Of a stretch of DNA of 64,000 nucleotides, positions 19,707 through 31,943 are shown one piece after another (within the stretch, counting starts at the first letter, position 1; each line of letters starts with the position of its first letter). The notes beneath the pieces were generated by a model, which had not been told where the DNA came from, searched no databases, and saw only the letters and a program-made list of their open reading frames with translations. Position numbers and translations under genes: made by a program. Source of the stretch: Piscinibacter sp. (GTDB taxonomy: Bacteria > Pseudomonadota > Gammaproteobacteria > Burkholderiales > Burkholderiaceae_C); the NCBI GenBank assembly GCA_017983795.1, contig JAGOAS010000021.1:26267-90266 (forward strand), given 5' to 3'.

Positions 19707-21735
19707 CCCGTCTGGCTGCGAAGTCCACGAACCAGGGCACGCAATCGGCATTGGCCATCGCGTCGAGCTTGAACACCTGTTCGGCCGGCGTGCCCAGCAG
19801 CAGCTTCTTGACCGGCAGTTCCATCTTCTTGCCCGAGAGCGTGCGCGGGATCGCGCTCACCTGGAAGATCTCGTTGGGCACATGGCGCGCCGAGAGCGCT
19901 TCCTTGATCGCCTGCTTCAAGCGCTTCACCAGCGCCTCGTCCAGCGTGAGGCCCTCGCGCAGCACCACGAACAGCGGCATGTAGCTCTCGCGCCCGAGGT
20001 ATTCGAGGTCGACCACCAGGCTGTCGATCACCTCGGGCTGCGCCTCCACCGCGCGGTACAGCTCGGCCGTGCCCATGCGGATGCCGTGGCGGTTGATGGT
20101 CGCATCGCTGCGGCCGTAGATGATCGCGCCACCGCGCGGCGTGATGCGGATCCAGTCCCCGTGCCGCCACACGCCGGGGTACATGTCGAAGTACGAGTCG
20201 AGGTAGCGCTTGTTGCCCGCATCGTTCCAGAAGCGCAGCGGCATCGAGGGCATGGGCTTCACGCACACCAGCTCGCCGACCTCGTCGACCAGCGAGCGCC
20301 CGCGGCCGCTCGCATCCGCCTCGCTCCAGGCCTCCACCGCCGCGCCCAGGCAACGCACCTGCATCTCGCCTTCGACCACCGGCAGCGTGATCAGCCCGCC
20401 GACGAAGGCGCCGGCGAAGTCGGTGCCGCCCGCGATCGGCGTGAGCCAGATGCGCTGGCCGTCCACCTGGGGCATCTGCTCCCACACCCAGCGGTAGCCG
20501 TCCACCGCCAGCGGCGAGCCGGTGGAGCCGATGGCGCGCAACTTCGACAGGTCGGCCACCTTGGCGGGCTGGATGCCGGCTTTCAGGCAGTTCGCATAGA
20601 AGGCCGCGCCGGCGCCGAAGAAGGTGGCGCCGGCGTCGGCGGCGAACTGCCAGATGGTGTTGAGGTCGGGCGATGCGATACGTCCGCCGGGGTTGCCGTC
20701 GAAGGTGCACACCGTGGTGCCGCCCAGCAGCGCACCGGGCTGGGTGTTCCACATGATCCAGCCGGTCGAGCTGTACCAGTGGTAGCGGTCGCCCGTCTCG
20801 ACGCTGGCGCCGACGTTGTTGTGCAGCGCGCCCATCTTCAGCGACTCCAGCACGATGCCGCCATGGCCGTGCACGATGGGCTTGGGCAGGCCGGTGGTGC
20901 CGCTCGAATAAACAACCCATAGCGGGTGGTCGAAGGGCAGCCACTCGGGTGCGAACTCGGCCTCGCCCGCCACCAGCGCGGCGAAGTCGTGCAGGCCACG
21001 GCCGGGGGCGGCGAGCACCGAGGCATCCGCGTTCTCGTCGCGGTAGCGCAGCAGCACCGCGTGCCGCACGCTGGGCAGCTCGGCGAGCAGCTGGCGCAGC
21101 ACCGCCATGCGGTCGTGCGCTACGCCGCCGTAGACGTAGCCGTCCACGCCGATCAGCACCTTGGGCTCGATCTGGCGGAAGCGGTCGAGCACCGCCAGCG
21201 GGCCCATGTCGGGCGAGCACACCGACCAGATCGCGCCCAGGCTGGCAGCGGCGAGGAAGGCAACGATGGCATGCGGCGTGTTGGGCAGGAAGGCGCAGAC
21301 GCGGTCGCCGCGCTGCACGCCCATGCCGCGCAGCGCCGCCGCCAGCGAGGCCACCTGGCGGCGCAGCTCCGGCCACGAGAGCTGCTGCATCTGGCCGCGC
21401 TCGCGCATGCGCTCGTTCTGGAACACGATGGCCGGGTGCCCGGCCGCGTGCGCCGCGTCGGCATGGCGCAGCACCTGGCGCGCGTAGTTCAGCTGCGCGC
21501 CCTCGAACCAGCGCGCGCCGGGCATCACCGCTTCGGCGAGCACGCGCTCGTGGCGTGTCGGCGACTCGATGGCGAAGTAGTCCCAGATCGCGCCCCAGAA
21601 GGCCTCGAGATCGCTCACCGACCAGCGCCACATCGCGTCGTAGCCCTCGACCGTCGTCGGGTCGAACTGCAGGCCGCGGGTCTCGTTCAACCAGCGCGTG
21701 AACTTCAGGATGCGCGGCTCCGGCAAAGTGCTCAT
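19690..21735 (-). CDS. aacS: Acetoacetyl-CoA synthetase
   Basis: 681 residues from ATG 21735. The same frame remains open far upstream through the binding-protein gene, but the family N-terminus (FTRWLNETRGLQFDPTTVEG) fixes the start. AMP-forming ligase motifs are YSSGTTGLPKPIVHGHG, TGWIMWN and GRSDATINRHGIRMGTAE, with the C-terminal catalytic Lys in LSGKKMELPVKK. It activates acetoacetate for ketone-body or polyhydroxybutyrate-related metabolism. Its ATG overlaps the stop of the preceding solute-binding protein gene (ATGA), so they are translationally coupled. Its end overlaps convergent trxC by 17 bp. Confidence 0.94.
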   Translation of the reverse strand: MSTLPEPRILKFTRWLNETRGLQFDPTTVEGYDAMWRWSVSDLEAFWGAIWDYFAIESPTRHERVLAEAVMPGARWFEGAQLNYARQVLRHADAAHAAGHPAIVFQNERMRERGQMQQLSWPELRRQVASLAAALRGMGVQRGDRVCAFLPNTPHAIVAFLAAASLGAIWSVCSPDMGPLAVLDRFRQIEPKVLIGVDGYVYGGVAHDRMAVLRQLLAELPSVRHAVLLRYRDENADASVLAAPGRGLHDFAALVAGEAEFAPEWLPFDHPLWVVYSSGTTGLPKPIVHGHGGIVLESLKMGALHNNVGASVETGDRYHWYSSTGWIMWNTQPGALLGGTTVCTFDGNPGGRIASPDLNTIWQFAADAGATFFGAGAAFYANCLKAGIQPAKVADLSKLRAIGSTGSPLAVDGYRWVWEQMPQVDGQRIWLTPIAGGTDFAGAFVGGLITLPVVEGEMQVRCLGAAVEAWSEADASGRGRSLVDEVGELVCVKPMPSMPLRFWNDAGNKRYLDSYFDMYPGVWRHGDWIRITPRGGAIIYGRSDATINRHGIRMGTAELYRAVEAQPEVIDSLVVDLEYLGRESYMPLFVVLREGLTLDEALVKRLKQAIKEALSARHVPNEIFQVSAIPRTLSGKKMELPVKKLLLGTPAEQVFKLDAMANADCVPWFVDFAARRVTSPS

Positions 21736-23522
21736 GACGATGTCTCCATGTCGACCCCGGTGTAGACCCAGGTGTCGCGTGCAAAGGGATGCCGCCACCA
21801 GCCGCGCACGCGCGGCTGCAGCAGGTCGTTGGTGATGGTGTGCACATGCGCCTTGTACGGCATGTGCGCGGCCAGCATGTTCTTGCCCTCGCGCATCAGC
21901 GCGAGGCGCTCGGCGCCGTCGGGCAGCACGCTCTGGCGCTCGAACAGGCGGTCGAAGGCGGGCAGCGCGAAGCGCGCGTCGTTCGATTCGCCCGAGTTCG
22001 GCCCGTAGGCGATGCCGAGGAAGAAGCCGCCGTCGGGCGACTGCGCCACCCAGCCGTAGCCCCACATCATCAGCGTGGCGTTGCGGCTGCGCTTGAGCAG
22101 ATCCGGCCAGGTGGCGACGTCGAACTCGATGCGCAGGCCCACGCGCGCCAGGTGCTTGCGCCACAGCTCGTTGCCGCGCCGCGAGATCTGGCTGCTGGTG
22201 GACGACAGGCGCAGCACCAGCGGCGAGCCGTCGGGCAGCTCGCGCCAGCCGTCGCCGTTGCGGTCGAGGTAGCCGTAGAGATCGAGCAGGGCCATGGCGC
22301 GTGCCGGGTCGTGCGCGCTCATCTCGCTGCGGTAGCCGCTCTCGTAGCCCGAGGTGAAGGGCGGGATGGTCGATTGCGCCGCGATGCCCTGGCCGTTGCG
22401 CAGCGCACGCAGCTCCTCGTCGTTGTCGTAGGCCAGCGCGATGGCGCGGCGCAGCGCCACCTTCTCCGGCGCGTAGCCGCCCACCAGCGGGTGCAGCATG
22501 TTGAAGTAGGTCATCACCATGTCGGGCTGCGGCACGCGCTGCAGCCGCACGCCGCGCCTGGCGAGATGAGGCGCGAGCGCGCCGCCGGGCACGGCCACCG
22601 GTGCGAAATCCACCGGCAGCTCGATCTGGTCGAGCGAGCCGTCGAGAAAGGCCAGCCAGCGCGGCTGCGATTCCTCGATCACGCTGATCTCGACGCGCTC
22701 GGCCAGCGGCAGGCGCCGCCCCGCCAGCGCGCGCGCGATCGCCTGCGCCTGCGCGTCGCCCGGCGCCGGCGTGGCCTCGAAGATGCGCTCGCGGTAGCGC
22801 GGGTTGCGAACAAGCTCGATGCGCGAGCTGCGCCGCCAGGCGGCGAGCACGTAGGGCCCGGTGCCCACCGGGTGCGCGGCGATGTCGGCGCCATAGGCCT
22901 CGACCACCTCGCGTGCGATCGCGCCGGCCAGGCCGGTCTGCGCGAAGAGGAATGCGAAGCGCGGCCCCGGCTTCGCCAGGCGTACGGAAAACGTGTAGCG
23001 ATCGAGCGCGCGGATGCCTTCGACCGTCGCGTCGTAGTCGAAGGGCTTCTTCTCCTTCAGGGCGCGCTCGCGCAGCTCGGTCAGGCCGAGCACGCCGGCG
23101 TTCTCCCACAGGTAGAGCAGCTCGCTGTTGTTGCGCGGGTCGTAGTAGCGCTTGATGGCGTAGACGTAGTCCTGCGCCACCAGCTCGCGCGGCCGGCCCT
23201 GGAACACCGGGTCGTCGGCGAAGAAGATGCCCGGCCGGATGCGGAAGGTGAAGCTGCGGAAATCGTCCGCCACCTCGGGCAGCGCCTCGGCGGTGAGCGG
23301 CTGCATCGCCACCGGCCGGGCCAGGTGGTCGTAGGTCAGCGGCGACTCGAAGATGCAGGCGGCGACGCGATTCGAGTTCTCGTCGCCGATGGCGACCGGG
23401 TCGAAGCCGGTCTCGGCGACGCGGAAGGCGACGCGCAGGGTGTTGTCGCGCGCCGCGGCTGGCGCGAGCCGCGGCGCCGCGAGCAGCGCCGCCGACGCGC
23501 CGAGCCAGTGGCGCCGCCGCAT
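21732..23522 (-). CDS. Oligopeptide-type ABC substrate-binding protein, paralogue 1
   Basis: 596 residues, family 5 extracellular solute-binding (YejA/DppA-like). A signal peptide with an RRRHW start and an Ala-rich core ends near PAAARD. Conserved family stretches are VAETGFDPVAIGD, AHPVGTGPYVLAAWRRSSRIELVRNPRYRE and GGYAPEKVALRRAIALAYDN. Near residue 420 a DRNGDGW segment resembles a DxDxDG calcium loop. It is the last of three tandem paralogues; translation is coupled to aacS by a 4-bp overlap. The substrate is unknown, but the divergent permease/ATPase genes are the obvious partners. Confidence 0.93.
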   Translation of the reverse strand: MRRRHWLGASAALLAAPRLAPAAARDNTLRVAFRVAETGFDPVAIGDENSNRVAACIFESPLTYDHLARPVAMQPLTAEALPEVADDFRSFTFRIRPGIFFADDPVFQGRPRELVAQDYVYAIKRYYDPRNNSELLYLWENAGVLGLTELRERALKEKKPFDYDATVEGIRALDRYTFSVRLAKPGPRFAFLFAQTGLAGAIAREVVEAYGADIAAHPVGTGPYVLAAWRRSSRIELVRNPRYRERIFEATPAPGDAQAQAIARALAGRRLPLAERVEISVIEESQPRWLAFLDGSLDQIELPVDFAPVAVPGGALAPHLARRGVRLQRVPQPDMVMTYFNMLHPLVGGYAPEKVALRRAIALAYDNDEELRALRNGQGIAAQSTIPPFTSGYESGYRSEMSAHDPARAMALLDLYGYLDRNGDGWRELPDGSPLVLRLSSTSSQISRRGNELWRKHLARVGLRIEFDVATWPDLLKRSRNATLMMWGYGWVAQSPDGGFFLGIAYGPNSGESNDARFALPAFDRLFERQSVLPDGAERLALMREGKNMLAAHMPYKAHVHTITNDLLQPRVRGWWRHPFARDTWVYTGVDMETSS

Positions 23523-23532
23523 CGCGCCGGCC

Positions 23533-25353
23533 CTAGCGCGGGCGCGGCTGGCGCGCCGCGTCGATGTCGATGTATTGCCAGAAGCGGTTGCCGTAGAGCG
23601 GCCGGCGGAAGCCGCTGAGCCAGGGCTGGGTGAGGTCGTTGACGATGCGGTGCACGTTGTACTTGTGCGGCGCCAGCGCGGTGATGATCTTCTGCGCCTC
23701 GCGCAGCAGGCCCAAGCGCTCCGGCCCGTCGGGCAGCGACTGCATGCGCACGTAGATCTCGTCGAAGCGCGCGTTGTGGAAGCGCGCCAGGTTCTGCCCG
23801 CCCGCCGCCGGGCCGTAGAGGATCTGCAGCGCGTCCTGCACGTCGGGGCTGCCGGCCGAGTAGCCGAGCTGCCAGATCATCAGCTGCCCGGCGCGCGCCA
23901 TCTTGAGCTGCTCGGGCCACTGGCCCTTGAGAACCTTCAGGCGCACGCCGATGCGGTCGAGGTTGCGCTTCCACAGCTCGTCGAACTGGCGCGAGAGGTC
24001 GTCGGGCTGGGTGGCGTACTCGATCGTGAGCGGCGAACCGTCGGGCCGCTCGCGCCAGCCGTCGCCGTCGCGGTCGAGGTAGCCGTACAGGTCGAGCAGC
24101 GCCATCGCGCGCGCCGGGTCGTAGTCGCCGCCTTCGAGCTTGAGCTGCGGGTCGTAGCCCCAGGTGCCCGGCGCCACCAGCGACTGCGCGGGAATCGCCT
24201 GGCCGCGGCGTATGCCGTTGATCTCGCGGTTCACGTCGGTGGCCAGCGCGATGGCGCGCCGCAGCGCCACCTTCTCCGGCGTGTAGCCGCCGACCACCGG
24301 GTCTTCCATGTTGAAGTAGAAGAGCGTGCGGTCGGGGTTGACGATGCGATGCAGCGCGATGCCGCGCTTGGCGAGGTTGGGCGCGAGCTTGCCGTTCGGC
24401 AGGGCCGCGCCGGCGAACTCCAGCGGCACGGTCACGAGGTCGAACTGCTGGTTGAGGAAGGCCAGCCAGCGCGGCTGGCCGACCTCGATGATGCTGACCT
24501 CGACACGGTCGATCATCGGCAGCGTGCGGCCGGAAAAGCGCGCCAGCAGCGCCTGGCCTTCGGCATCGTCGGGCGCGGGCGAGACCACGTCTTCGTAGCG
24601 CACGCTGCGATAGCCCGGGTTGCGCTCCAGCACGATCAGCGAGCTGCGCCGCCACTGCGCCAGCTTGAAGGGCCCGGTGCCCACCGGGTGGGCCATGATC
24701 TGGTCGCCGTAGAACTCCACCACCTCGCGCGCCACCGCGCCGATCAGGTCGCTCTGCGCGAGCGTGTAGAGGAAGCGCGGGCGCGGCTGCTCGAGGCGGA
24801 ACTGCAGCGTGTGGCGGTCCAGCACGCGCAGGCCCTCGACGGGCGCGTCGTAGTCGAGGGGCTTCTTGTCCTTGAGCGCACGCTCGCGCAGTTCGCTCAC
24901 GCCGAGCACGCGCTCCTCCTCGAAGCCGGCCACATTCGGGCTCTTGGTGGCCGGGTCGAAGTGGCGCTTCCAGGCGTAGGCGAAATCGGCCGCCACCAGC
25001 TCGCGCCGCTGCCCCTTGAAGGCCGGGTCGTCGGCGAAGTAGATGCCCGGCTTGACGCGGATCGTCCAGGTGCGGAAATCCGCGCTGACCTCCGGCATGC
25101 CCTCGGCGACGTTGGGCCGCACGAGGAAGGGCCGCGCCAGATGGTCGTACATGTACAGCGCATCGAAGATGTGCGCGGCGACGGTGCGCGAATACAGGTC
25201 GGCGATCTGCGCCGGGTCGAAGCCGGTCTCGGCGATCGGGAAGGCGTAGCGCAGCACCTTGGCGCGCTGCGGCTCCTCGGCCTGCACCGCCCAGGGCGCC
25301 GCCAGGCCGGCGGCGGCGAGTGCGGCGAATTCGCGCCGGCGCAGGCGGCTCAC
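23533..25353 (-). CDS. Oligopeptide-type ABC substrate-binding protein, paralogue 2
   Basis: 606 residues from GTG 25353, which overlaps the previous paralogue's stop (GTGA). AAGGAGG lies four bases before it, so this start is well supported and the much longer frame to 26475 is not used. The signal begins MSRLRRREFAALAAAG, a twin-arginine-like pattern. It shares YAFPIAETGFDPAQI, YFADDPAFKG, MAHPVGTGPFKLAQWRRSSL and YTPEKVALRRAIALA with its neighbours, and has DRDGDGW near residue 422. A duplicated receptor gene with diverged ligand loops is likely. Confidence 0.93.
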   Translation of the reverse strand: MSRLRRREFAALAAAGLAAPWAVQAEEPQRAKVLRYAFPIAETGFDPAQIADLYSRTVAAHIFDALYMYDHLARPFLVRPNVAEGMPEVSADFRTWTIRVKPGIYFADDPAFKGQRRELVAADFAYAWKRHFDPATKSPNVAGFEEERVLGVSELRERALKDKKPLDYDAPVEGLRVLDRHTLQFRLEQPRPRFLYTLAQSDLIGAVAREVVEFYGDQIMAHPVGTGPFKLAQWRRSSLIVLERNPGYRSVRYEDVVSPAPDDAEGQALLARFSGRTLPMIDRVEVSIIEVGQPRWLAFLNQQFDLVTVPLEFAGAALPNGKLAPNLAKRGIALHRIVNPDRTLFYFNMEDPVVGGYTPEKVALRRAIALATDVNREINGIRRGQAIPAQSLVAPGTWGYDPQLKLEGGDYDPARAMALLDLYGYLDRDGDGWRERPDGSPLTIEYATQPDDLSRQFDELWKRNLDRIGVRLKVLKGQWPEQLKMARAGQLMIWQLGYSAGSPDVQDALQILYGPAAGGQNLARFHNARFDEIYVRMQSLPDGPERLGLLREAQKIITALAPHKYNVHRIVNDLTQPWLSGFRRPLYGNRFWQYIDIDAARQPRPR

Positions 25354-27161
25354 TTCGCCTCCTTCGCGCGCAGCGCCGGGTCGACGTCGAGAAACTTGTA
25401 GAACTCGCGCACGAAGGGGTTGCGCCGAAAGCCCAAGACCCAGGGCTGCATCAGGTCGGTGGCGATGCGGTGGCAGCTCAGCTTGTAGGGCACGTAGGCC
25501 ACCATCAGCTTGCTCGCTTCCGCTATCACCCGCTCGCGCTCGGGGCCGTCGGGCAGCACCTTCTGCTTGTCGTAGAGCGCATCGAAGGCCGGCAGCGCGA
25601 AGCGCGCGTGGTTGGCGCCGCCCTTGTTGGGGCCGTAGGCGAGCGCGAGGAAGGTGTCGGCATCCGGCGTGGTGGCCGACCAGGCCACGCCCCACATCAT
25701 CAGCTTGCCGGCGCGCGAGGCTTTCAGGTTCTCCGGCCACTTGGCCACCTTGAAGACGATCTTCAGGCCGACCGCCTTCATGCTCTTTTCCCACAGCTCG
25801 GCGAGCTGGCGGCTGGCCTGGTCGGGCTGGGTCGCGTACTCCAGCACCAGCGCCGAGCCGTCGGGTCGATCGCGCCAGCCGTCGCCGTCGCGGTCGACAT
25901 AACCGTAGAGATCGAGCAGCGCGCGGGCACGCGCCGGATCGTGGTCGCTCATGCTCGTCTTGAGCGCGGGGTTGTAGCCGAAGGCCAGCGGCGCCACGGC
26001 GGTCTGCGCTGGCACCGCCTGCGCCTTGCGCACCAGGCGGATCTCCTGCTCGCTGTTGTAGGCCAGCGCGATGGCGCGGCGCAGCGCCACCTTCTCGGGC
26101 GTGTAGCCGCCCACCACCGGGTTGTCCTGGTTGAACAGCGCGGCCAGCGTGATGTCGACCATCGGCGCGCGGTCCATGCTGATGCCGCGCTTGGCGAGGT
26201 TGGGCGCGAGCTTGTCGTTCGGAATCACCACCGGCGCAAACTCGTTGGGCAGGCGCTCCATCAGGTCGGTCTGCTCGTTCAGGAAGGACAGCCAGCGCGG
26301 CTGCGACTCCTCGATGATGGCGATCTCCACGCGGTCGAGCATGGGCATGCGGCGGCCCTTGAGCTGCGCGGCGATGGCCTGCGAGCGCGCATCGTCGGCC
26401 GGCGCCTCTTCGTCGTAGAACACCTCGCGGTAGCCGGGGTTGCGCTCGAGCACGATGCGCGAACTGCGCCGCCATTCGGCGAGGCGGAAGGGGCCGGTGC
26501 CCACCGGGTGCTCCATGATCTTCTCGCCGTAGGCCTCGACCACCTCGCGCGCCAGCGCGCCGAAGTTGCCGGCGTCGGTCATCACGTCCTGGTGGAAGCG
26601 CGGCGAGGGTTCGGCCAGCCGCACCTGGAAGGTGTAGCGATCGAGCGCGCGCAGGCCCTCGACCTCCTGCCCGTAGGGGAAGGGCTTCTTGTCCTTCAGC
26701 ACCTGCTGTCGCAGCTCCGACAGGCCGAGGATCTTGGCCGCCTCCAGCCGGTAGAGGTTGGGGCTGTTCCAGCGCGGGTCGTAGTGGCGCTTGAGGCTGT
26801 AGACGTAATCCTCGGCGACCAGCTCGCGCTTCCTGCCCCTGAAGGCCGGGTCGTCGGCGAAGTAGATGCCGGGCTTGATGCGGAAGGTGAAGGTGCGGAA
26901 GTCGGCGCTGATCTGCGGCATCTCGGCCGCGGTATTCGGCTTGAGCTTGAAGGGCCGCGCGAGGAAGTCGAAGGCCAGCGGCGTCTCGATGATGCCGGCC
27001 ATCACGGTGCGCGAATACAGGTCGGAGATCTGCGCCGGGTCGAAGCCGGTCTCGGCGATCGGGAAGGCGTAGCGCAGCACGCGCGGCGCGGCATCGGCCG
27101 CAGCGGCACCGCCATGGAGGAGCGAAAAGATCAGGGCGGCAGCGAGGGCGCGAACAGACAT
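25350..27161 (-). CDS. Oligopeptide-type ABC substrate-binding protein, paralogue 3
   Basis: 603 residues from ATG 27161. The frame also runs 22 codons further up to 27227, but that would cross the divergent permease start, and the residues from 27161 (MSVRALAAALIFSLLHGG) make a clean Sec signal peptide. The family core includes YAFPIAETGFDPAQISD, GIYFADDPAFRGRKRELVA, MEHPVGTGPFRLAEWRRSSR and DRDGDGW near residue 419. It is the first gene of the leftward set of three receptors plus aacS. An inverted repeat in the 64-bp divergent gap probably controls both directions. Confidence 0.93.
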   Translation of the reverse strand: MSVRALAAALIFSLLHGGAAAADAAPRVLRYAFPIAETGFDPAQISDLYSRTVMAGIIETPLAFDFLARPFKLKPNTAAEMPQISADFRTFTFRIKPGIYFADDPAFRGRKRELVAEDYVYSLKRHYDPRWNSPNLYRLEAAKILGLSELRQQVLKDKKPFPYGQEVEGLRALDRYTFQVRLAEPSPRFHQDVMTDAGNFGALAREVVEAYGEKIMEHPVGTGPFRLAEWRRSSRIVLERNPGYREVFYDEEAPADDARSQAIAAQLKGRRMPMLDRVEIAIIEESQPRWLSFLNEQTDLMERLPNEFAPVVIPNDKLAPNLAKRGISMDRAPMVDITLAALFNQDNPVVGGYTPEKVALRRAIALAYNSEQEIRLVRKAQAVPAQTAVAPLAFGYNPALKTSMSDHDPARARALLDLYGYVDRDGDGWRDRPDGSALVLEYATQPDQASRQLAELWEKSMKAVGLKIVFKVAKWPENLKASRAGKLMMWGVAWSATTPDADTFLALAYGPNKGGANHARFALPAFDALYDKQKVLPDGPERERVIAEASKLMVAYVPYKLSCHRIATDLMQPWVLGFRRNPFVREFYKFLDVDPALRAKEAK

Positions 27162-27190
27162 CACGGGAATTCTCGGGGTCTCCTGCACGC

Positions 27191-27219
27191 CGAGTCTATC
27201 GGCGCAGGCCCTAGACTCG
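27191..27219. promoter_or_regulatory. Inverted repeat with back-to-back -10-like elements
   Basis: CGAGTCTA (27191-27198) and TAGACTCG (27212-27219) are perfect 8-bp inverted repeats with a 13-bp spacer in the 64-bp gap between the receptor and permease genes. Each arm contains TAGACT reading outward. The plus-strand copy ends eight bases before the permease ATG (27226), giving a nearly leaderless mRNA. The minus-strand copy would give a leader of roughly 25 bases. It may serve as paired promoters, a regulator site, or both. Confidence 0.5.
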
Positions 27220-27225
27220 CGCCTC

Positions 27226-28164
27226 ATGGCCGCTTACCTGATCCGCCGCCTGTGGCAGATGATCCCGACGCTCGCCGGCGTCGTGCTGCTGGTGTTCTTC
27301 CTCTTCAAGGCTTTCGGCGGCGATCCGGCCGAGATCCTCGGCGGGCTGTCGGCCTCGCCCGAGCAGATCGAGGCGATCCGCCAGCAGCTCGGCCTCGACA
27401 AGCCGTGGTGGACGCAGCTGGGCATCTTCCTGAAGCAGATCGTCAGCTTCGACTGGGGCCGCAGCTGGGCCACCAACGAATCCGTGGCCAACCTGTTCGC
27501 CACGCGGCTGCCGGCCACGCTGACGGTGATGGTGCCCATCCTCATCCTCGACACCCTGCTGGCGATTCCGATCGCGCTGCTGGTGGCCTACCTGCGCGGC
27601 TCGCTGACCGACCGCACGATCATGGTGGCCACCACCATCGCGCTGTCGATCTCCTTCCTCGTCTACGTGATCATCGGCCAGTATCTGTTCGCCTTCCAGC
27701 TCGGCTGGTTCCCGGTGCAGGGTTGGACGGACAGCGTGGCCACCAACCTGCTCGTCTATACGCCGCTGCCCGTGCTGCTGGCGGTGATGGTGGGCCTGGC
27801 GCCGCAGACGCGCCTGTATCGCACCTTCTTCCTCGACGAGATCGGCCAAGACTACGTGCGCACCGCGCGCGCCAAGGGCCTCACCGAGCCGCGCATCCTG
27901 CTCACGCACGTGATGCGCAACGCGCTCATCCCCATCCTCACCAACGTGGCGGTATCGCTGCCGGGCATCTTCGTGGGCTCCTTCCTGATCGAGGTGTTCT
28001 TCTCCATCCCCGGCCTGGGCCGCGAGGTGCTGCTGGCGGTAAACCGCAGCGACTACCCGGTGATCCAGGCGGTGACGATCTACCTGGCGGTGATCACCAT
28101 GGTGGTGAATCTCGCCACCGACGTGCTCTACAAGCTGGTCGACCCGCGGGTGGTGCTGAAATGA
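27226..28164 (+). CDS. Oligopeptide ABC transporter permease (DppB/YejB-like)
   Basis: 312 residues. The family N-terminus is MAAYLIRRLWQMIPTLAGVVLLVFFLF, and about six membrane helices follow. The cytoplasmic EAA-type loop is YVRTARAKGLTEPRILLTHVMRNALIP near 215-240, which docks on the ATPase. The end (LYKLVDPRVVLK) is typical of the BPD transport family. It forms the channel with the second permease encoded after the hairpin element. It is divergent from three receptor genes. The 250-bp gap to the second permease gene is odd in an otherwise tight operon. Confidence 0.95.
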   Translation: MAAYLIRRLWQMIPTLAGVVLLVFFLFKAFGGDPAEILGGLSASPEQIEAIRQQLGLDKPWWTQLGIFLKQIVSFDWGRSWATNESVANLFATRLPATLTVMVPILILDTLLAIPIALLVAYLRGSLTDRTIMVATTIALSISFLVYVIIGQYLFAFQLGWFPVQGWTDSVATNLLVYTPLPVLLAVMVGLAPQTRLYRTFFLDEIGQDYVRTARAKGLTEPRILLTHVMRNALIPILTNVAVSLPGIFVGSFLIEVFFSIPGLGREVLLAVNRSDYPVIQAVTIYLAVITMVVNLATDVLYKLVDPRVVLK

Positions 28165-28202
28165 GCTTGCCTTTGATGAGGGTCGCCGAACAGACGTTGG
28201 CG

Positions 28203-28393
28203 CACGGCGCGGGTCGGGCGGGCTGGGCTGTGCGCGGCCCGATATCCGTGCTCGCCCAGCCCGCCCGACCCGCGCCGTGTCACCGCTCGCTGACTCAGCG
28301 CGCGCCCCTGGTTGCCGCTTCGGCGAGGCCGGGGCCTGCCGGTCGAGCACGGATATCGGGCCGCGCACAGGCCGGCAGGCCCCGGCCTCGCCG
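28203..28393 (+). repeat. Two long hairpins with mutually complementary loops inside the ABC operon
   Basis: Hairpin 1 has perfect 26-bp arms, 28203-28228 and 28254-28279, with a 25-base loop (28229-28253). Hairpin 2 has perfect 22-bp arms, 28321-28342 and 28372-28393, with a 29-base loop. Bases 28345-28369 of loop 2 are the exact reverse complement of all 25 bases of loop 1. The RNA could thus form two hairpins with a loop-loop contact, or one long-range 25-bp stem. The element fills the 250-bp gap between the two permease genes. Neither hairpin is followed by a U-tract. It may be an inserted palindromic element or an RNA control structure. Confidence 0.9.
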
Positions 28394-28414
28394 TGCTCGG
28401 TGGTGGAGCCGGAC

Positions 28415-29458
28415 ATGAGCGCCGTCCTCACGATCAACGGCGCCACCGCGCGCTCCGAAGGCGTGTGGGCCGCGGCCTGGCGCCGCTTCAAGGGCGACCG
28501 CGTCGGCATGGTGTCGTTGGGCCTGGTCGCCGCCTTCGTGCTGCTGATGCTGGCCGCGGCGCTCAAGCTGGTGGCCGGCGACTGGCAGCGCGAGATCGGC
28601 GTGCCCGACGCGCCGCCCACTTTCATGGGCCCGGCGAAGAAGGAAGCCGCGAGCGCGATCCCCGTGCCCACCGGCCCGAACGTCGACATCTCGGCGGTCG
28701 ACCCGCTCGCGCCGCGTTATGCCGAGTGGGCCGAGCTGGCCAAGAAGTACGAGACCGCGCAGGAGATCAGACACGAGACCCTGCCCTTCGGCGGCGACCG
28801 CCTCGGCCGCGACGTGCTCGCCAAGGCCATCAAGGGCGCGCAGATCTCGGTATTCGTCGGCGTGGCCGCGGCGCTGGTGGCCACGCTGATCGGCACCGTG
28901 CTGGGCGCGCTGGCCGGCTTCTTCGGCGGCCGCATCGGCGACTTCCTCGAGTGGCTCTACAACGTCTTCACGTCCATCCCCGGCATCCTGCTGATCTTCG
29001 CCTTCGCGGCGGTGGCCGGGCGCGGCGTGCAGTCGGTGGTGCTGATCCTCGGGCTGACCGGCTGGACGGGCATCTACCGCCTGGTGCGCGCCGAATTCCT
29101 CAAGCATTCGGTGCGCGAGTATGTGCGCGCCGCCGAGGCGATCGGCGCGAGCGCGCTGTCGCGCATCTTCCGCCACATCCTGCCCAACGTGAGCCACGTG
29201 ATCCTGGTGCAGCTGTCGATCCTGGTGGTCGGCTTCATCAAGGCCGAGGTGATCCTCTCCTACCTCGGGCTGGGCGTGAGCGTCGACCAGGTCAGCTGGG
29301 GCACCATGCTCGCCGAGGCGCAGAGCGAGCTCATCCTCGGACACTGGTGGCAGCTCGCCGCGGCGACGGCCTTCATGGCTGTGTTCGTCACCGCCTTCTC
29401 GCTGATGACCGACGCGCTGCGCGACGCGCTCGATCCCAAGCTGCGCGGAGCCGAATGA
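28415..29458 (+). CDS. Oligopeptide ABC transporter permease (DppC/YejE-like)
   Basis: 347 residues from ATG 28415, with TGGAG eight bases upstream. The same frame is open to 28277, but that would read through the hairpin element. A first membrane helix (LGLVAAFVLLMLAAALKLV) is followed by an unusually long periplasmic stretch of about 90 residues before FGGDRLGRDVLAKAIKGAQISVFVGV. The EAA loop is EYVRAAEAIGASALSRIFRHILPN. It pairs with the DppB-like permease. Its stop overlaps the ATPase start (ATGA). Confidence 0.94.
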   Translation: MSAVLTINGATARSEGVWAAAWRRFKGDRVGMVSLGLVAAFVLLMLAAALKLVAGDWQREIGVPDAPPTFMGPAKKEAASAIPVPTGPNVDISAVDPLAPRYAEWAELAKKYETAQEIRHETLPFGGDRLGRDVLAKAIKGAQISVFVGVAAALVATLIGTVLGALAGFFGGRIGDFLEWLYNVFTSIPGILLIFAFAAVAGRGVQSVVLILGLTGWTGIYRLVRAEFLKHSVREYVRAAEAIGASALSRIFRHILPNVSHVILVQLSILVVGFIKAEVILSYLGLGVSVDQVSWGTMLAEAQSELILGHWWQLAAATAFMAVFVTAFSLMTDALRDALDPKLRGAE

Positions 29459-31161
29459 TGTTGCTGAGCATCCAGGATCTTCGCGTGCGCTTCCGCATGG
29501 GGCGCGGGCCGAACGTGGCGTATGCCGAAGCCGTCGGCCGCGGCGACGCCGGCGTGAGCTTCGAGGTGCCCGAGAACGGCACCGTGGCGCTGGTGGGCGA
29601 GTCGGGCTCGGGCAAGAGCGTCACCGCCATGTCCATCCTCAACCTGCTGCCGGAGAACGCCGAGCGCCAGGGCACGATCCGCTTCCAGGGCCGTGACCTG
29701 CTCGCCGCCTCGCTGGCCGAGCTGCAGGCGCTGCGCGGCAAGGACATCGCCTGCGTGTTCCAGGACCCGATGACCTCGCTGAACCCGGTGTTCACGATCG
29801 GCCACCAGCTGTGCGAGCCGATGCAGCGGCACCTGGGCCTCACGCGCCGCCAGGCGATGGAGAAAGCCGAGGCGCTGCTCGCCGAGGTGGGCCTGCCCGA
29901 GCCGAAGCGGCGCCTCGCGGCGCACCCGCACGAGCTCTCCGGCGGCCAGCAGCAGCGCGTGATGATCGCGATGGCGCTGGCCTGCGAGCCGCGCCTGCTG
30001 ATCGCCGACGAGCCGACCACCGCGCTGGACGTGACCATCCAGCGCCAGATCATCGAGCTGCTCGCGAGGCTGAAGGACAAGCACCGCATGAGCATGCTGT
30101 TCATCAGCCACGACCTCGGCCTGGTCGGCGAGATCGCCGACCGCGTGGTGGTGATGCGCCAGGGCACGGTGCGCGAGCAAGGCGCGGTGGCCGACATCTT
30201 CGCGCGCCCGCAGGACGCCTATACGAAGGCGCTGCTGGCCTGCCGGCCGACGCTCGATCAGCGCGGCGCGCGGCTGATGGTGATCGACGACCACATCGCC
30301 GGCAACGGCGCGGCCGCCGAGCGCGTCGCCAAGGCGAAGGATCCCGAAGCGCCGGTGGTGCTGCAGGCCAGCGACGTCACCAAGAGCTTCTGGATCCGCA
30401 GCGGCGTATTCGGGCGGCGCGAGTTCCAGGCCGTCAGGGGCGCGAGCTTCACGCTGCGGCGCGGCCACACGCTGGGCATCGTCGGCGAATCGGGCTCGGG
30501 CAAGACCACGCTGGGCCTCACGCTGCTGCGCCTGCACGAGCCCGCCGGCGGCCCGGCGGGCGGCAAGGCAGTATTCGATGGCCGCGATCTGCTCGCGCTC
30601 AGCCGCGAGCAAATGCTGCCCATGCGCCGGCGCATCCAGGTGGTGTTCCAGAACCCCTACGCCTCGCTCAACCCGCGCTTCACCGTGGCGCAGACGCTCA
30701 CCGAGCCGATGGCCATCCACGGCATCGCCGCAAGCGACGCCGAACGCACGCAGCGCGCGCGGGCGCTGCTCGCCAAGGTCGGCCTCGACGAGGGCGCGCT
30801 CAACAAATATCCGCACGAGTTCTCCGGCGGCCAGCGCCAGCGCATCGCGATCGCGCGCTGCCTGACGCTGGAGCCCGAGGTGCTGGTGCTCGACGAGGCG
30901 GTGAGCGCGCTCGACGTCTCGGTACAGGCGCAGGTGCTCAATCTCCTGAAGGACCTGCAGGACGAACTCGGCCTCGCCTACATCTTCATCAGCCACGACC
31001 TCGCGGTGGTGCGCTTCATGGCCGATGAGGTGCTGGTGATGAAGGACGGCCAGGTGGTGGAGCAGGCCGGCGTCGAGCAGATCCTGGCGGCGCCGCGCGA
31101 GGAGTACACGAAGCGGCTGCTGGGGGCGGTGCCGCGGGGGTACGTGGCGGCAACGGCTTGA
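29455..31161 (+). CDS. Fused double ATPase of an oligopeptide ABC transporter (YejF-like)
   Basis: 568 residues holding two complete ABC domains in one chain, as in YejF. Domain 1 has [11 protein letters not shown] (Walker A), LSGGQQQR (signature) and [12 protein letters not shown] (Walker B). Domain 2, after about residue 300, has [19 protein letters not shown] and [12 protein letters not shown]. The oligopeptide-transporter C-terminal segments are visible ([11 protein letters not shown] and [12 protein letters not shown]). Two ATGs in tandem (29455 and 29458) are possible; GCGGAG upstream fits 29458 slightly better, while 29455 gives the ATGA overlap with the permease. It energises uptake through the two permeases. 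Confidence 0.95.
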
Positions 31162-31230: not shown

Positions 31231-31254
31231 TGTTTGTTCGCTAAGGAGCCGCCC

Positions 31255-31509
31255 ATGACCATCACGACGCTGTCCAGCCGGGAACTGAACCAGGATGTGA
31301 GTCGGGCCAAGAAGGCAACCCGCAACGGCCCTGTGTTCATCACGGATCGCGGCAAGCCTGCGCACGTGCTGTTGAGCTTCGAGGACTACCAGCGGCTGAC
31401 GAAGCAGCGGCGCAACGTTGCCGATGCGCTGGCGATGCCCGGCATTGCCGAGATCGAATTCGAGCCGCCGCGCGCGCGCGTCGCCGTCCGACCGACCGAT
31501 CTTTCGTGA
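31255..31509 (+). CDS. Phd/YefM-family antitoxin
   Basis: 84 residues from ATG 31255, with AAGGAG seven bases upstream; a TTG-started longer frame from 31234 is unlikely. The N-terminal DNA-binding part is typical (TITTLSSRELNQDVSRAKKA, then GPVFITDRGKPAHVLLSFEDYQRL). The C-terminal tail, rich in charged residues, should wrap and block the toxin. The pair is transcribed together; the stop overlaps the toxin start region. Base composition is noticeably less GC-rich than the flanking ABC genes, which suggests horizontal gain. Confidence 0.92.
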   Translation: MTITTLSSRELNQDVSRAKKATRNGPVFITDRGKPAHVLLSFEDYQRLTKQRRNVADALAMPGIAEIEFEPPRARVAVRPTDLS

Positions 31510-31943
31510 TGTACCTGCTCGACACCAACGTGCTTTCCGAGTTGCGCAAGGTGCGGCTCGGCAAGGCCGATGCGAACCTGGCGGCATGGGCGGAAAGCGT
31601 CGATGCCGCCGAGCTCTTCGTGTCGGCCATCACCATCATGGAGTTGGAACTCGGCGTGCTGGCTATCGAGCGCAAGGACACCCCCCAGGGAGCCATGCTG
31701 CGCGCGTGGCTGGAACAGCATGTTCTGCCCGAGTTCGCCGGCCGCACGCTGCCCGTCGACACCGCAGTGGCGCAACGCTGTGCCCGGCTACATGTGCCCG
31801 ACAAGCGCGGCGAGCGTGACGCGCTCATCGCGGCGACAGCGCTAGTGCATGGCATGGCAGTGGTCACGCGAAACGTGGCGGACTTCGAGCCCACGGGTGT
31901 GGCCATCGTCAATCCATGGGAGGCCGTAGCTCGCGACGAATAG
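31509..31943 (+). CDS. PIN-domain ribonuclease toxin (VapC/FitB family)
   Basis: 144 residues from ATG 31509, one base inside the antitoxin stop; GTG 31506 would give a 4-bp overlap. PIN-domain acidic residues are present: Asp in YLLDTNVLSEL, Glu in TIMELELGV, Asp near RGERDALIAATALVHG and Asp in TRNVADFEPTG. VapC toxins cleave structured RNA such as initiator tRNA. The combination of a Phd-type antitoxin with a VapC-type toxin is common. Composition is lower in GC than the neighbours. The 210 bases after it hold no recognisable gene. Confidence 0.93.
   Translation: MYLLDTNVLSELRKVRLGKADANLAAWAESVDAAELFVSAITIMELELGVLAIERKDTPQGAMLRAWLEQHVLPEFAGRTLPVDTAVAQRCARLHVPDKRGERDALIAATALVHGMAVVTRNVADFEPTGVAIVNPWEAVARDE

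Follow-up and report, generated by a model that had tools for sequence, protein, structure and literature searches.

Background

Among the short dispersed repeats of bacteria, MIRUs are mycobacterial sequences of 46–101 bp that show no dyad symmetry and keep the same orientation relative to transcription; Supply et al., in 1997, are said to have noted that they lack dyads of the long-hairpin kind. According to PMC12548453 they appear to insert at start codons and carry an internal ORF that is coupled to the gene there at -4 nt, so that expression is affected less. An excerpt of PMC3116915 describes the REP, REPIN and BIME sequences as dispersed, extragenic doublets of inverted palindromes. Small repeats that carry a translatable frame are mentioned in parts of PMC10969869, for the Rickettsia palindromic elements (RPE), and of PMC2759123, for the enterobacterial RU repeats with ORFs. 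Finally, a title cited in a portion of PMC10969869 places the MITE Chunjie of Geobacter uraniireducens in an operon whose structure it leaves undisturbed.

The repeat described here, from Piscinibacter, resembles each of these systems in part. Like the MIRUs, it is a short dispersed repeat found at overlapping or adjacent stop and start codons of operons (11 of 12 distinct co-directional sites) and in one orientation to transcription (again 11 of 12 such sites), and its internal ORF meets the neighboring genes, ending at most 12 nt from the next start in 10 of 12 copies, the coupling itself being predicted. Unlike them, it is about 205 bp long, contains two long hairpins and has a host of another phylum. 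By this comparison it would work like a MIRU and yet is not one, its architecture being that of an inverted hairpin doublet. It shares with REPINs and BIMEs the two inverted palindromic units and the dispersal (eight paired and three reduced copies in the genome), but differs from the REP/REPIN/BIME group in that its own genome has no Y1 (RAYT) match, and in its two different arm types, the perfect 22–26-bp stems of the copy studied here, its 11 copies and its tight operon junctions. As in RPE and RU, a small repeat has a translatable frame, but theirs lies in frame inside genes, whereas the present element makes a separate ORF between genes. The MITE Chunjie (Chen et al. 2008) has in common with it a location in an operon; to our knowledge, no ORF relaying translation is known for that element. 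The relay principle is already known from MIRUs; a hairpin-paired, MIRU-like version in a betaproteobacterium, or two relay-type families within one genus, were not found in the open-licence literature.

Results and discussion

The paired hairpins between two permease genes

In the window (the whole stretch of 64,000 nucleotides that was analyzed) one copy of the element separates two ABC permease genes. The features are:

27226..28164, + strand: upstream gene for a DppB-like ABC permease of the dipeptide/oligopeptide type (ORF; Pfam BPD_transp_1 and BPD_transp_1_N)
28161..28418, + strand: putative bridging ("relay") ORF of 85 codons (ORF calling, sequence reading)
28199..28402, + strand: dispersed paired-hairpin element, approximate span, hairpin A first in the direction of transcription (copy alignment, extent of genome BLAST)
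28203..28279, + strand: hairpin A with perfect 26-bp arms (sequence, arm computation, folding)
28229..28253, + strand: core of hairpin A, 25 nt, partly paired within (core search, folding)
28321..28393, - strand: hairpin B, a unit of A's kind but inverted, with perfect 22-bp arms (sequence, arm computation, folding)
28345..28369, - strand: core of hairpin B, of the same sequence as core A in the window copy (core search)
28415..29458, + strand: downstream gene for a DppC-like ABC permease (ORF frame and end; Pfam BPD_transp_1)

The DppB-like permease does not reach the cut-off of any listed NCBIfam model; "Dpp" is therefore, on the sequence, a family-level name that does not settle the substrate. 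A close homologue of dppC is found in all eight genomes of the genus, the own genome counted, and in the five aligned relatives the gene starts at the dppB stop. The relay ORF overlaps both neighbors by the same four bases, its ATG with the dppB stop (ATGA, 28161–28164) and its TGA with the dppC start (ATGA, 28415–28418), and it has no Pfam or NCBIfam match at an E-value of 0.001. Hairpin A begins within it, 39 nt past the dppB stop.

An earlier note on this DNA had reported the perfect arms of 26 and 22 bp, the exact reverse complementarity of 28229–28253 to 28345–28369 and a gap of 250 nt between the dppB stop and the dppC ATG, all of which were borne out, the arms both by reading and by computation (no offset in hairpin A, an offset of 2 nt in hairpin B). 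In hairpin B, folding predicts that pairing reaches 24 pairs with G-U. The arms of the two hairpins, which the note called unrelated, indeed prove so, but each belongs to one of two arm types, A and B, that are found again in other copies; likewise the supposed 25-nt loop has the exact complementarity claimed for it, but is not an open loop, as it is predicted to be partly paired within and to leave a terminal loop of 8 nt. The predicted minimum-energy and centroid folds are both two separate hairpins (-168 kcal/mol). The folding z-score is -9.8 for the hairpin pair and -11.2 and -8.6 for the single hairpins, with none of 200 shuffles equally stable in each case. In window positions 27000–30000 Rfam gave only microRNA models, all sub-threshold and none above the gathering score, and for nine of 161 loci at E up to 0.1 again only sub-threshold microRNA models, in two further copies of the window family; assignment to a known RNA family was rejected for the stretches searched with Rfam.

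Two features of the surrounding genes were noted by eye. On the minus strand at 21732–27227, beside the permease operon, the ORF list suggests three tandem paralogous genes for extracytoplasmic solute-binding proteins, and at 31234–31943 two short adjoining genes resemble those for a Phd-type antitoxin and a PIN-domain (VapC-like) protein.

A dispersed family restricted to one lineage

The element is a lineage-specific dispersed palindromic repeat made of two inverted hairpin units, of arm types A and B, that share a core. When up to 3 mismatches are allowed, the own genome has 19 occurrences of the core (10 forward, 9 reverse), against no match for the reversed core pattern used as a control at the same setting, and BLAST finds 21 pieces of the element. 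These belong to 11 places, namely eight paired copies (contigs C3, C7, C15, C35, C36, C39, which is that of the window, C40 and C43) and three reduced ones (contigs C16, C29 and C45). Every full copy, about 205 bp long, consists of one type-B and one type-A hairpin, inverted to each other, with a spacer. The cores of A and B are exact reverse complements in only two of the eight paired copies (C39 and C43), differing at 1 to 3 positions in the other six, and in none of the four paired copies of Piscinibacter aquaticus (genus genome G001), which has four full copies and a 35-bp fragment.

Of the interpretations offered in the note, the RNA switch is not supported, while two inverted copies of a small mobile core is close to what was found, as the inverted units share a core, are dispersed and have empty orthologous sites. 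Absence of the core elsewhere, which the note held would speak against it, did not occur, since the search was run and the core recurs; what the note observed is right, though the hairpins are no unique switch and represent one of 11 copies scattered over the genome.

Matches were obtained in four of the eight genus genomes, with true copies only in G000 and G001; the short matches in G002 and G006 have no hairpin context and were discarded. A scan of named species genomes for the exact core, which may leave out records of the own genome, gave five stretches, four in P. aquaticus and one in an Oscillibacter bin, the last rejected as a copy since it is without hairpin arms. Two of 250 genomes of the family matched, the own genome and G063, whose 53-bp match again has no hairpin context and was not accepted; here scoring was limited to 3 candidates from each genome, and P. 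aquaticus lay outside the sample, so that copies could be missed. There was no blastn match to the element in the phage and plasmid collections and no exact match to the core pattern in viral_contigs, and cargo of a phage or plasmid was rejected on these grounds. An origin as a RAYT-driven REP was also rejected, as the Y1 transposase (PF01797) has no match in the own genome, which is 99.7% complete, while the control found PF01797 matches in 5 of 14 genomes; the search for a mobilizing transposase covered Y1 only.

Insertion at tight operon junctions

Because the five aligned relatives have a bare stop/start overlap at the dppB/dppC site (ATGA in three, GTGA in two), where the window genome has 250 nt instead, the window copy is, by this alignment, to be read as an insertion. 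The comparison comprised these five relatives and G006, whose junction was read and carries another palindromic insert, with the junction of G007 left out. Empty junctions were likewise found at the sites of other copies, and at 11 of 12 distinct co-directional sites the stop-to-start spacing in relatives is approximately -4 to 19 nt. Read partly by eye, the junctions are TGATG for C43, TGATG or ATGA for C40, TGACATG for C36 and C7, and TGAGATG for C45, with spacings of two bases for aL031 (of P. aquaticus), three for C29 and 7 to 19 for C35, C16 and aL032. At the remaining co-directional site, that of C15, the relative (L076) has a gap of about 42 nt, and the C3 copy lies between convergent genes whose flanks are apart in relatives. 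Hence, apart from these two, the distinct sites are all tight junctions of co-directional genes (11 of 13), and all 15 full or reduced copies are intergenic. In 400 kb of the own genome, gaps of at most 15 nt occur in 51 of 156 co-directional pairs and make up roughly 0.2% of bases, as estimated with a rough gene caller; placement of the element there thus points to a strong preference, whether of insertion or of survival. Stop and start signals recur at both ends of the element without exact duplication, and no clean or exact target-site duplication was seen by eye at the sites.

Hairpin A comes first in the direction of transcription at 11 of the 12 distinct co-directional sites, the exception being C15, the lone B-first copy (two-sided binomial P = 0.006). 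Each site was counted once, with C16/aL033 and C29/aL028 merged, and C29 was judged from its B hairpin alone.

The merged pairs are the two sites common to both species. The tails beside the element at the C16/L033 site look unalignable by eye despite the common site, and in G007 the junction corresponding to C16 is empty, though in DppC the own genome is nearer to G007 (94%) than to P. aquaticus (91%); for the shared C16 and C29 sites, fast decay, precise loss or repeated insertion at a hot spot are all possible. In G007 the C43 and C15 sites are occupied by inserts other than this element. That at the latter (L077) is a third, unrelated insert of approximately 100 nt with an ORF that, by eye and unscored, shares a GTGA with the upstream stop at its beginning and an ATGA with the downstream start at its end.

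An ORF linking the flanking genes

A bridging ORF was defined as one starting with ATG, GTG or TTG at -4 to +10 nt from the first base of the upstream stop and ending at most 12 nt from the next start. Of the 12 copies tested (C39, C43, C35, C36, C7, C40, C16, C45 and the four of P. aquaticus), 10 have such an ORF, leading from the upstream stop to the downstream start or close to it; its start codon is TTG in C43 and GTG in C45. The two misses are C35, whose ORF ends 43 nt within the next gene, and aL032, where the ORF from the overlapping ATG continues in the frame of the next gene to a stop 186 nt inside it. The B-first copy C15, the convergent C3, C29 with its lost hairpin A and the 35-bp fragment stood outside this test; with C15, C3 and C29 scored as misses, 10 of 15 bridge. 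Copies with internal deletions still bridge, the ORF being retained both in C16, where hairpin B is broken, and in C45, where both hairpins are.

The expected number depends on the null, and all P values are optimistic in that the 12 copies are related, two sites being common to both species, and were treated as independent. A full dinucleotide shuffle that kept the phase of start and stop gives 5.4 of 12 (P = 0.002), shifting the phase 5.0–5.1 (P = 0.003–0.004) and flipping the element 5.0 (P = 0.003). A partial shuffle, which rearranged the sequence only in part, underlies two further expectations, 4.0 of 12 when combined with a phase shift (P = 0.0003) and 7.9 of 12 with the phase kept (P = 0.085). 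Among ordinary gaps of 100–350 nt in 400 kb of the own genome, 6 of 19 are bridged (Fisher P = 0.009 against the element), and two of these six look like genes missed by the gene caller.

The element is open in most frames, and an ORF open as far as the next start, present in 12 of 12, is not in excess of the 11.0 given by the phase null. An apparent avoidance of stop codons was discarded, as it disappears when each substitution is counted once (P = 0.33). In seven copies pN/pS is 0.82 for the relay peptide, while the two remaining sense frames give 0.92 and 1.20 and the antisense frames 0.84–1.29, and codon position 3 is more variable in the relay frame with P = 0.065; these values suggest weak constraint on the peptide, or none. 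Since the frames are mostly open anyway, stop avoidance is unsupported and the peptide is hardly constrained, any importance of the ORF would probably lie in its being translated, not in the peptide that results.

A second palindromic family at similar junctions

The insert at the dppB/dppC junction of G006 belongs to another, unrelated palindromic repeat, which is also inserted at a liv-type junction of G007. Its motif, CCCCCANNCTCACTGNGTTCGCTGCCCCC, occurs 64 times in seven of the eight genus genomes with up to 2 mismatches, controls giving 0, and in 3 of 120 genomes of the order, the own genome included, with up to 1 mismatch. In 37 of 40 copies examined, out of the 64, the gene on the motif strand ends 2–20 nt before the motif, as judged by codon-position G+C; an opposite-strand ORF passed this filter as well in 6 copies of the 40, including one of the remaining three. 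Among the 35 junctions scored, 28 are bridged by an ORF of 25–36 codons, against 14 expected under the phase null (P = 3e-8, the relatedness of the copies ignored); a single base separates the stop of the ORF from the next start in 16 of them, and in 6 the two overlap by 4 bases. Three of the seven misses have an ORF open to the end of the stretch. The peptides, read by us, are mostly of the form M[KR]PP[SRH]SLRSLPP... (loci L122–L161, motif near 801–829), but all three frames of the motif are in use (in 23, 3 and 2 copies), and the relay of this second family is therefore more than one fixed peptide. One further locus, L163, has three tandem copies at about 513–697 with a spacing of 78 bp, a multiple of three, in a stretch that is open in at least one frame and is possibly an in-frame insertion in a gene.

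How the hairpin arms stay paired

In 18 of the 19 units of the own genome (C45 left out), both partners have changed in 15 of 31 pairs, a signal that is lost in sliding controls. The 80 double-changed cells overstate the number of events, as many of them stem from the contrast of arm type A with arm type B. Within the core, positions 8 and 19 are G-C in 12 and C-G in 6 of these 18 units. When 24 intact units (the A units of C45 and aL033 and the B unit of C29 dropped) are read on the A-first strand, 553 of 576 arm cells are Watson-Crick, the other 23 comprising 5 G-U, 11 A-C and 7 others, distributed in that order as 1, 10 and 4 in type A and 4, 1 and 3 in type B.

The drift of a selected RNA stem should favor G-U; type A has no such excess, while type B weakly shows it. 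From these counts we infer, more weakly than for the relay discussed below, that near-perfect arms are kept by copying between arms at the DNA level and not by selection of an RNA stem; template switching, which copies one arm onto the other during DNA replication, is described in a part of PMC8794818. A near absence of G-U (1 one-sided cell against 16 unpaired) had seemed decisive for such homogenization, but was set aside since that alignment pooled the arm types and had the strand of hairpin B flipped; after the recount on one strand the claim is weaker.

A proposed relay across the insertion and its alternatives

The explanation towards which we lean, as a fairly probable one, is that of a MIRU-like insertion that is read through as a relay ORF, so that expression of dppC survives. 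In this view the element inserted where the dppB stop and the dppC start overlapped and were coupled in translation. Ribosomes finishing dppB would restart on the relay ORF at the first ATGA, translate through both hairpins and then pass to dppC at the second ATGA. This would maintain the coupling that a bare gap of 250 nt would abolish, and would keep the mRNA covered, so that Rho-dependent polarity, which acts on exposed RNA according to a portion of PMC12548453, might be avoided. In an excerpt of PMC10666635 a distance of about 20 nt nearly abolishes coupling (six gene pairs tested); an untranslated insert of 250 nt should therefore uncouple dppC and expose the RNA to Rho, and a relay ORF overlapping at both ends would remove both problems, reasoning that PMC12548453, a review, applies to MIRUs. 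Counting against such a relay, a part of PMC7518266 states that stable structure directly past a stop codon reduces re-initiation.

The same facts might be accounted for by a neutral, MITE- or REPIN-like repeat, tolerated at operon junctions where little is damaged, with the bridging ORF a by-product of high G+C and of the stop/start signals that recur at both ends of the insertion. Long ORFs are expected in an element without stops in most frames, the peptide is under little constraint, and ordinary gaps bridge too (the 6 of 19, two resembling missed genes). We nevertheless regard this as rather unlikely, given the matching phase of start and stop in 10 of 12 copies, with about 5 expected, the single orientation that prevails at 11 of 12 sites and the like behavior of the second family, in three frames. 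Still less probable, in our judgment, is a hairpin RNA element that sets the DppB:DppC ratio, like REP sequences in operons, whether as a stabilizer of the transcript, a barrier at the 3' end or a dampener of re-initiation. Folding z-scores of about -10, the strand-biased placement within transcripts and arms that covary strongly, type B having some G-U pairs (4 of its 8 imperfect cells), are in line with such a role, as is a report, in an excerpt of PMC12306157, that REPs near stop codons act on translation; but G-U accounts for the minority of imperfect cells, unlike in the slow drift of a selected stem, and C16 and C45 keep the bridging ORF with their hairpins broken.

The switch of the earlier note, in which pairing between the loops is the alternative to the hairpins in a bistable RNA, is in our view very improbable and was rejected as the main reading. 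What favors it is the exact complementarity of the cores in the window copy and C43, i.e. in only 2 of 12 paired copies, whereas in the other 10 it is inexact. Complementarity follows in any case from the units being inverted copies, both predicted folds are those of the separate hairpins, and core positions 8 and 19 covary within each core, so that it is the local hairpin that is kept.

Conclusions

We propose the relay as an account of how this element persists between dppB and dppC. It is further possible, although we advance it only tentatively from the sequences of the copies, that several unrelated palindromic families of this lineage have converged on the stop/start overlaps of operons and survive there by means of a short relay ORF in any frame. 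They would then represent translation-transparent mobile DNA with hairpins, a palindromic counterpart of the MIRUs. If the relay works, it would explain why the downstream genes of tightly coupled operons are not silenced when repeats with strong hairpins enter them, it would make the MIRU idea testable outside mycobacteria, in two independent families of one genus, and it would provide a supply route for new small translated ORFs. Long covarying stems may also mislead searches for functional RNAs, because their pairing may be kept at the level of DNA.
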